NCBI GenBank assembly: GCA_001897425.1
Contig: MKSW01000026.1
Coordinates: 1-57,972 of the forward strand
DNA: 57,972 nt
Direction of reading: 5' to 3'
Source of the DNA: Actinobacteria bacterium 69-20
Lineage (GTDB): Bacteria > Actinomycetota > Actinomycetes > Mycobacteriales > Nakamurellaceae
Shown: positions 681 through 57,301 of the stretch, one piece after another
Position numbering within the stretch: the first letter of the stretch is position 1
Layout of the letters: the number at the start of each line of letters is the position of its first letter
Position numbers and translations under genes: made by a program
The notes under the pieces: model-generated
Databases searched by the model: none
Told to the model about the DNA's origin: nothing
What the model saw: only the letters and a program-made list of their open reading frames with translations

Positions 681-694
681 GAACAGCGTCATAC
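681..694 (-). repeat. Dispersed motif copy (GTATGACGCTGTTC)
   Basis: A full match to the recurring motif GTATGACGNYGTTC, continued by GCCGC. It lies between the LCP gene and the gdx leader, in non-coding DNA. Confidence 0.75.
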
Positions 695-710
695 GCGGTT
701 CGGACCACCG

Positions 711-729
711 ACCCGAACGATCTTCGGGT
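711..729 (-). terminator. Hairpin downstream of LCP gene
   Basis: ACCCGAA (711-717) and TTCGGGT (723-729) form a perfect 7-bp stem with a 5-nt loop, 23 bases past the stop of the minus-strand LCP gene. There is no T tract, which is common for actinobacterial terminators. Termination is inferred. Confidence 0.5.
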
Positions 730-752
730 TCCGGCAGGGCCGACACGAGGCG

Positions 753-55184: not shown

Positions 55185-55196
55185 TCGGAGCCGATC

Positions 55197-55787
55197 ATGT
55201 CGTCCCAGGCTCGAACCTCCGGCAAGACCGTGCCCATCGAAAGGGCTGTGTCGGTAGGCAATCTCGCGCCGGCTGAAACACGCGCGCCGTCCGAGAAGCC
55301 CGCGCCGCCGACGAAGGCCGCCCGGCAGGGCCGGATCACCGCCATCATCACCGGCCGCGAGATCCGGTCGCAGACCGAGCTCGCCGCGCTGCTGGCCGCC
55401 GAGGGCATCGACATCACCCAGGCGACCCTTTCCCGGGACCTGGAGGAACTGGGCGCGATCAAGCTGCGCGGCGTCGACGGCGGAGCCGGCAACTACGTCA
55501 TCCCCGAAGACGGTCACCCGCGGCCGATGTCGGGCGGCACCTCGCGGCTCGCCCGGCTGCTCGGCGACCTGCTGCTCGGCTACGACGCGTCTGGCAACAT
55601 CGCCGTTCTGCGCACCCCGCCGGGCGCCGCGCAGTTCCTGGCCTCCGCGATCGACCGGGCCGCGCCGGACGGGGTGATCGGCACGATCGCCGGCGACGAT
55701 ACCGTGATGCTGGTCGCTGCCGAGGGGACCACCGGCGCCCAGGTCGGCGCGCGGCTCGCCGCGTACGCGGCCGGCGACGGCGCCTGA
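55197..55787 (+). CDS. argR: Arginine repressor ArgR
   Basis: A 196-residue arginine-sensing repressor. The winged helix-turn-helix ([47 protein letters not shown], residues ~46-92) binds ARG boxes. The C-terminal domain ([33 protein letters not shown]...[14 protein letters not shown]) hexamerises and binds arginine. The ~40-residue N-terminal extension is longer than in most ArgR. It lies 12 bases after argF. Its likely target is the phased box before argC. Confidence 0.95.
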
Positions 55788-55831
55788 GCTGGTGCCCCAG
55801 AAGGACGGACTGGAATGGACAAGGCGGATCG

Positions 55832-57301
55832 GTGACCGAGCGTTCCGAGTATGACGATGTTCGCGGCGAAGCCGCCAGGCCCCCGGCCGACGGGCCGACA
55901 TCGCTGTGGGGGGGCCGGTTCTCGGCTGGGCCGTCACCCTCGATGGCGGCCCTGTCCAAGTCCACCCAGTTCGACTGGATCCTCGCCCCGTACGACATCC
56001 GGGCGTCGAAAGCGCATGCGAATGTGCTGCACGCGGCCGGCCTGCTCACCGACGACGAGCTCACCCGCATGCACGCGGCGCTCGACGCCCTCGCCGCGGA
56101 CGTCGCCTCCGGGGCGTTCGTCGCCCAGGACGGTGACGAGGACGTGCACACCGCCTTGGAGCGCGGCCTGATCGACCGCGCGGGCGCCGACCTCGGCGGG
56201 AAGCTGCGCGCCGGCCGGTCGCGCAACGACCAGGTGGCGACGCTGTACCGGTTGTACCTGCGCGACGCGGCCCGCCGGATCGCGCTCGCCGTGACGGACC
56301 TGCAGCAGGCGTTCCTCGACCAGGCGGCCGCGCACCCGAACGCACCGATGCCCGGCCGGACCCACTTTCAGCACGCGCAGCCCGTGCTGCTCGCGCACCA
56401 CCTCGCCGCGCACGCCCAGGCGCTGGCCCGGGACATCGACCGGATTCGCGATTGGGACCGGCGGAGTTCGGTGTCCCCCTACGGTTCCGGGGCGCTGGCC
56501 GGGTCGTCGCTGCACCTGGATCCGGCGGCGGTCGCCGCAGAACTCGGTCTCGACGCCCCGGCGGCGAACTCCATGGACGGCACCGCCTCTCGCGATTTCG
56601 CGGCGGAGCTGGCGTTCTGCCTGGCCATGCTCGCGGTCGACATCTCGCGCTGGGCCGAGGAAGTCGTCATCTTCACGACCGTCGAGTTCGGCTTCGCGAA
56701 GCTGGACGACTCGTTCGCCACCGGCTCGTCGATCATGCCGCAGAAGAAGAATCCGGACATCGCGGAACTCGCCCGCGGCAAGGCGGGCCGCATCATCGGC
56801 AACCTCACCGGGCTGCTCGCCACGCTCAAGGGACTGCCGCTGGCCTACAACCGCGACCTTCAGGAGGACAAGGAGCCGCTCATCGACTCGGTGGATCAGC
56901 TCGAGCTGGTGCTGCCGGCGATCACCGGCATGACGGCGACCCTGTCCTTCGCGACCGCCCGGATGGAATCCCTTGCCGGGGCGGGCTTCTCGCTCGCGAC
57001 GGACATCGCCGAATACCTGGTGAAACACGGTGTGCCGTTCCGGGTGGCGCACGAGGCCGCCGGCGGATGCGTGGCGCTCGCCGAGTCGACCGGCCGCGAG
57101 CTGGACGAACTCACCGACGACGAGTTCGCGTCCATCAACCCGGCACTGGACCCGGGCGTGCGTGCGGTGCTCACTGTCGCCGGGTCGCTCGCGTCCCGGG
57201 ACGGCATCGGTGGCACGGCGCCGGTGCGCGTCGCGGAACAACTGGCCGCGTTGACCGAGCGCGTGGCCGCCGACCGGGCCTGGGCGGCCATGGCGCAGTG
57301 A
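55832..57301 (+). CDS. argH: Argininosuccinate lyase
   Basis: A 489-residue enzyme that releases arginine and fumarate. [17 protein letters not shown] starts the conserved part at ~26; [23 protein letters not shown] (~128), [17 protein letters not shown] (~175) and the signature [12 protein letters not shown] (~302) are intact. The first ~25 residues ([20 protein letters not shown]) are extra; the dispersed motif encodes its EYDDV. argG, which separates argR and argH in Mycobacterium, is absent. Confidence 0.96.
55849..55862 (+). repeat. Dispersed motif copy (GTATGACGATGTTC)
   Basis: A perfect copy continued by GCGGCG. It lies in the extra N-terminal codons of argH and gives EYDDV with a TAT codon. 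Confidence 0.75.

Follow-up and report, generated by a model that had tools for sequence, protein, structure and literature searches.

Copies of the motif in the window

The window, by which we mean the whole stretch of 57,972 nucleotides that was analysed, is contig 26 of an assembly (G000) comprising 43 contigs and 4,475,503 bases (4.48 Mb), which we infer to belong to the genus Nakamurella. When both strands were searched for GTATGACGNYGTTC with up to two mismatches, the window yielded 23 copies against an expectation of 2.3 (standard deviation 1.6, maximum 9, in 100 dinucleotide shuffles), distributed over intergenic DNA, coding sequences (CDS), and gene ends (Table 1). The initial annotation had named 14 places, all of which match with zero to two mismatches, six exactly and the others with one or two; its list was incomplete, and nine more copies lie within the same tolerance. 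Its spacing of about 4 kb has to be replaced by one copy per 2.5 kb (23 in 58 kb at up to two mismatches), and its estimate of about 18 occurrences of the heptamer TATGACG was too low, the excess itself being real (22 in the window versus 2.7 expected). Four of the copies within CDS (6344, 17312, 27482, and 36319) lie where relatives show gaps or variation and two (4656 and 12113) where the sequence can be aligned; several other CDS copies had no aligned relative.

Table 1 Copies of GTATGACGNYGTTC in the window at up to two mismatches. Genes were called with a simple codon-usage caller, and gene ends are approximate
Position	Strand	Match	Named initially	Context
681..694	-	exact	yes	intergenic; orthologous copy in sister
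2424..2437	+	exact	yes	in CDS called on - strand; sister also exact
4656..4669	+	1 mismatch	no	antisense in CDS; 9 relatives align without gaps at this place and use other codons
6344..6357	-	exact	yes	CDS stretch gapped or variable in relatives; sister copy with one change
12113..12126	-	1 mismatch	no	antisense in CDS; amino acids mostly common to 6 relatives, codons differ
16520..16533	+	weak copy, 2 mismatches	no	intergenic
16898..16911	+	weak match, 2 mismatches	no	conserved coding sequence; may be chance
17312..17325	-	1 mismatch	yes	variable part of CDS
18960..18973	+	weak copy, 2 mismatches	no	spans gene end
19686..19699	-	1 mismatch	no	in CDS
21018..21031	+	exact	yes	spans gene end
24747..24760	-	exact	yes	intergenic
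25898..25911	+	weak copy, 2 mismatches	no	in CDS
27482..27495	+	weak copy, 2 mismatches	yes	in CDS; adjoins second TATGACG at 27474
32596..32609	-	weak copy, 2 mismatches	yes	intergenic
33246..33259	+	weak copy, 2 mismatches	yes	intergenic
34124..34137	+	weak copy, 2 mismatches	yes	in CDS
36319..36332	+	1 mismatch	yes	in part of CDS where relatives have gaps
44633..44646	-	weak match, 2 mismatches	no	in CDS; may be chance
46430..46443	-	1 mismatch	yes	intergenic
48898..48911	+	1 mismatch	no	intergenic
49880..49893	+	weak copy, 2 mismatches	yes	in CDS
55849..55862	+	exact	yes	intergenic by gene caller; possible ORF from 55832 would cover copy

Consensus and abundance across the genome

In G000 as a whole, GTATGACGNYGTTC occurs exactly 359 times (184 and 175 by strand), a density of one per 12.5 kb, and the reversed pattern used as a control does not occur; the counts rise to 734 at up to one mismatch and 1472 at up to two, with 5 and 101 for the reversed pattern. 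Alignment of 98 intergenic copies with at most one mismatch gave a better consensus, the 17-letter word CGRGTATGACGNYGTTC (in one concrete form, CGAGTATGACGCTGTTC). Its strong extension is an upstream CGR, in which C and G each reach 0.94. Position −5 shows a weak preference for A, NCGGC follows weakly on the 3′ side, and beyond that the sequence is almost without conservation. The GCGGC continuation that had been described as frequent is weak, at 0.15–0.42 bits per base in these copies. The variant CGGAGATGACG was found 44 times where 5.2 were expected; a minority of its occurrences continue as the motif and the majority do not.

In 1.20 Mb of G000 (27% of the genome), the 17-mer was found 85, 85, 112, 217, and 747 times at zero to four mismatches, versus means of 0, 0.0, 1.5, 28, and 261 for 31 permuted or reversed controls, such that the excess shrinks steadily as mismatches rise. 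An unbiased word count placed 11-mers of the motif at the top of the ranking in the examined stretches of both G000 and its sister genome, G003. In the same 1.20 Mb, 20 synonymous-codon shuffles left on average 0.4 exact copies within CDS and never more than 2, where 41 are present, and 20 dinucleotide shuffles left no exact intergenic copy, where 58 are present. The CDS count is 42 elsewhere in this report, since genes were read one by one in the shuffle test.

Placement relative to genes and strands

Of 108 exact copies in the 1.20 Mb, 85% of which is coding, 58 are intergenic, 42 lie within CDS, and 8 run across gene edges. The copies within CDS occupy both strands and several frames, with the exception of frame 0 on the sense strand, where none occurs because the word contains TGA in that frame. 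A protein motif was considered as the cause and rejected given this use of strands and frames and the excess over synonymous-codon shuffles. Codon and dinucleotide shuffling and a protein-level explanation were the two tests on which the initial annotation had staked the motif, and in the part of the genome covered it withstood both.

A very large regulon with the word as its promoter, operator, or terminator might produce the intergenic majority of exact copies, yet the remaining placement makes such a regulatory site very improbable. Density is highest in convergent gaps, where promoters are not expected (1.02 per kb, versus 0.60 in divergent and 0.56 in tandem gaps; 97 copies), copies in tandem gaps are divided evenly between the direction of the genes (25) and the opposite direction (25), and 42 of the 108 exact copies are inside CDS. 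An excess of hairpins was not clear when predicted folding beside exact intergenic copies was compared with that 150 bases away (p = 0.07). Seven inverted pairs and one direct pair, with members within 60 bases of each other, were found among the 405 copies that have no more than two mismatches. At one place (L175:1413-1445), two copies facing outward from a common centre lie in a palindrome that is nearly perfect, spans about 40 bases, and is kept in both species.

The word has no polarity along the contigs: strand switches were observed in 113 of 194 neighbouring pairs, in a sample of 201 copies, from 216 with at most one mismatch, located on seven contigs. Polar marks for DNA processing, KOPS and Chi among them, would share the genome-wide over-representation; they would also be expected to form runs on one strand, of which none were seen, and at about 15 fixed bases the word exceeds the length of either, KOPS and Chi both being shorter, and we regard this reading as very improbable. 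The initial description of the motif as non-palindromic, present in both orientations, and unlike KOPS was correct. Spacing was without strong clustering, the coefficient of variation ranging from 0.71 to 1.15 by contig.

Conservation and mode of change between sister species

G000 and G003 were aligned over 176 kb at 91.3% identity, and 48 orthologous sites were compared at which at least one species is within one mismatch of the 17-mer, restricted to alignments no shorter than 300 bases and no less than 80% identical; these sites are not all independent, since one palindrome contributes two overlapping copies and one G003 copy aligns at two places in G000. Base changes account for the variation among the sites, apart from a single-base gap within the 17-mer at one of them and small flanking gaps at a few. 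In this aligned DNA, an empty site or a gap of the whole motif was found at none of the 48. Across 30 exact copies in G000, divergence is 2.5% (9/360) at the 12 fixed positions and 11.4% (252/2202) in the flanks, and about a quarter of the free positions inside the motif have changed (N at 8/30, Y at 7/30). With G003 as the reference, the corresponding figures are 8/348, 251/2083, 7/29, and 5/29. The word is thus kept across the two species far better than the DNA that surrounds it. At one coding site, G000 reads GGT TAT GAC GTC GTT and G003 reads GGT TAC GAC GTC GTC, both encoding Gly-Tyr-Asp-Val-Val, such that the better word is set apart by synonymous changes alone.

A short mobile element of the REP/RAYT or MITE-like kind, spread by insertion and now decaying, could explain why one lineage has near-identical copies by the hundred, and the many short copies per genome do resemble REP/RAYT and MITE repeats. 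Such repeats insert as units, whereas the Nakamurella copies differ between species by substitution. There is little homology outside the 17 bases, none of the orthologous sites is empty, hairpins are not clearly in excess, and the fixed bases of the motif change four to five times more slowly than the flanks while free positions persist within it. A relic origin is disfavoured because neutral remains of an old insertion would decay at the rate of the flanks. We therefore consider a mobile element highly improbable, and the initial suggestion of a short dispersed repeat, taken in the mobile sense, is not upheld. The lineage does contain a dispersed repeat that is unrelated to the word: about 70 bases of G000 (L182:19518-19590) match at least 25 places in G003 at 79–91% identity.

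Distribution among related genomes

We searched 61 genomes, namely G000, 16 others of the genus, and 44 of the order, and found the motif to be abundant only in the sister genomes G000 and G003. G003 contains 285 exact copies (reversed control, 1), and the 15 other genomes of the genus and the 44 of the order contain zero to one and zero to four, respectively. Identity to window positions 3001-11000 is 90–94% for G003 where it aligns and mostly about 66–78% over the longer matches to other members of the genus. At up to one mismatch, those 15 genomes contain 2–27 copies, the highest count being that of G006, a bearer of pilus genes; among the matches listed for G006, no single variant word stood out. 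At up to two mismatches, G006, G011, and G001 yielded 313, 194, and 265 matches against 71, 35, and 54 for the reversed controls, an excess of about five times from which it follows that the reversed control understates the background at this tolerance.

A species collection, from which the window's own genome may be missing, was also scanned with the pattern CGAGTATGACGNYGTTC, and at least 88 stretches matched. Of the 80 listed, 28 came from a single assembly, Nakamurella sp. HJP_bin23 (JAFIHI), which we take to be G003, and the other 52 had one match each. Between G000 and G003, DNA that the two share carries 47 copies in 167 kb and unshared DNA 3 in 24.3 kb, a lower density that is only a hint of scarcity in recently acquired DNA. 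Two blocks with zero copies, chosen post hoc, consist mostly of unshared DNA; the shared parts of both are also empty.

A different dialect of the word was sought in the pilus-bearing genomes. K-mer searches of G006 (160 kb) and G011 (120 kb), and of 120 kb of each in a second count, detected none of like strength, the top z scores being 6.1–7.7, compared with 9.0–15.0 when the motif was scored in G000 subsets of 120 kb, and scans at two mismatches gave none of like strength among the matches listed. The k-mer test could miss a sparse word, since it recovers the motif in seven of eight random 120 kb subsets of G000, and a z score of such size is no proof of a motif by itself because a GC-only word in G001 reaches 11.0 in 120 kb. 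Two further sets of over-represented words were observed. In G014 (L209-L211, L252-L253), overlapping 11-mers that read GCGAGGAACGAGCG and CTGGTGTCCTCGGA occur six to seven times each in 100 kb where 0.1–0.2 are expected; in G001 (L199-L201, L240, L250, L251), CCCGGCCCGGC and its shifts occur 17–25 times in 120 kb where about 3 are expected.

Pilus and competence genes

Both motif genomes possess a type IV pilus cluster in which family models identified PilB, PilT, PilC, PilA, two PilM, and minor pilins; candidate PilN and PilO were assigned by position, without a family match, and PilD is encoded away from the cluster. In G000, PilA and the minor pilins lie on C17 at about 68.6-76.1 kb. Relatives of ComEA and ComEC are likewise encoded in both genomes. 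PilT scored above its NCBIfam cut-off, PilB scored below its own NCBIfam cut-off and above those of Pfam for the ATPase and MshEN domains, and PilA was scanned using the G003 protein. ComEA, which adjoins ComEC in G000, and ComEC each scored below the NCBIfam full-length cut-off and above the cut-off of their own domain model. All 17 genomes of the genus encode ComEC; five (G000, G003, G006, G011, and G001) encode N-methyl pilins and PilD, and the first four of these encode PilM. G006 and G011 have a homologous pilus cluster and are without the motif. By annotation, then, few members of the genus have the pilus, and both genomes with the motif are among them, which is one coincidence and not proof: because the two genomes are sisters, the link amounts to a single event and not a statistic, and the chance of one clade having PilM is about 0.24 (4/17).

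Identity between the sisters is 62% for PilA (G000:C17 at about 75.6-76.3 kb, in L236; L237:9434-9865) and 83–98% for the rest of the pilus proteins in the cluster, as if PilA were under diversifying selection or had been exchanged. Within the cluster, a predicted Ricin-B lectin domain is found in one large protein resembling minor pilins (L235:18663-20000 and L236:1-249) and Ig-like repeats in another (L236:932-2776), and there are relatives in the G006 and G011 clusters. One minor pilin was modelled at a pLDDT of 48.6, too poor for structural comparison.

Discussion

Maintenance of the word at the DNA level would also fit a binding protein inside the cell, and this is the main rival to the uptake reading. 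A lineage-specific chromosomal protein, whether nucleoid-associated, SMC-loading, or engaged in repair, would bind the word and selection on sites would keep the copies, for which spacing without strong clustering is suitable. The word is at background in 15 of the 17 genomes of the genus, which would be unusual for a core nucleoid protein, and it is non-palindromic and without fixed orientation; we consider this explanation unlikely, if better placed than the regulatory, mobile, and polar ones. Of the three readings that the initial annotation offered without choosing among them, the nucleoid-protein site gains from the conservation of the word and has otherwise no positive support, and the uptake motif is the best fit.

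We conclude from comparative sequence data that CGRGTATGACGNYGTTC probably serves a Nakamurella lineage capable of natural transformation as its DNA uptake sequence. The type IV pilus would bind double-stranded DNA bearing the word, perhaps by way of one of its pilins, which is our guess for the receptor, and its retraction would carry the bound DNA through the wall to ComEA, after which ComEC would pass one strand into the cell and recombination would replace the matching chromosomal stretch with it. Alleles with a better word would be taken up more often, so improving point mutations would spread by drive and the word would be scattered in both orientations wherever the harm is small. What the data show is that the word is in excess, without polarity, maintained, different between species by substitution, and confined to two sister genomes among those searched, and that pilus and com genes accompany it; preferential uptake, the receptor, and drive are what we infer.

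Several features of this word recur in known systems. In the portions of the sources used here, uptake words are described as lying in and between genes, with an excess that falls with mismatches, evolution by point mutation, and an association with type IV pili (PMC1939737, PMC3630211, PMC12616744). The DNA uptake sequence (DUS) of the Neisseriaceae, as far as these portions describe it, is likewise non-palindromic, present in hundreds of copies on both strands, located in permissive genic and intergenic DNA, and common to sister species that have a type IV pilus. The Nakamurella word differs in being unrelated to the DUS, in its monoderm actinobacterial host, in how seldom its copies form inverted pairs (7 pairs in 405 copies), in that no ComP was found, and in its lower density. 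The DUS of Neisseria occurs roughly once per kb, and the density observed here is less than a tenth of that. With the uptake signal sequence (USS) of the Pasteurellaceae, the Nakamurella word shares a mismatch-dependent excess and evolution by point mutation, the two properties for which we draw on part of PMC1939737, which also cites a figure of about 10% of copies in inverted pairs. It is unrelated to the USS, longer (about 15 fixed bases), and found in a different phylum.

Among actinobacteria, Micrococcus luteus is naturally transformed via com genes, of which ComEC is one; its Flp pilus is unlike the PilB/PilT/PilM type found here. In the report on its transformation (PMC4322843), the term ‘uptake sequence’ is absent. 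A text search for the string GTATGACG was uninformative, and no actinobacterial case of an uptake sequence was found in the literature searched, a body from which most subscription papers fall outside. In the portion of a 2025 source that we draw on (PMC12616744), only two families are known to use uptake words. The two so far described belong to the Proteobacteria.

It seems likely that the Nakamurella word is a third independent origin of a self-DNA uptake word and the first in a Gram-positive (monoderm) phylum, here the Actinomycetota, one that evolved recently inside a single genus, whose pilus-bearing wordless members could show the start of such a system. A third case, in such a phylum and limited to two sister genomes while the other members of the genus that were searched are without the word, would open to study the origin of uptake words and whether a pilus must precede them, and it would also address whether self-recognition is itself selected or is a by-product of receptor bias.
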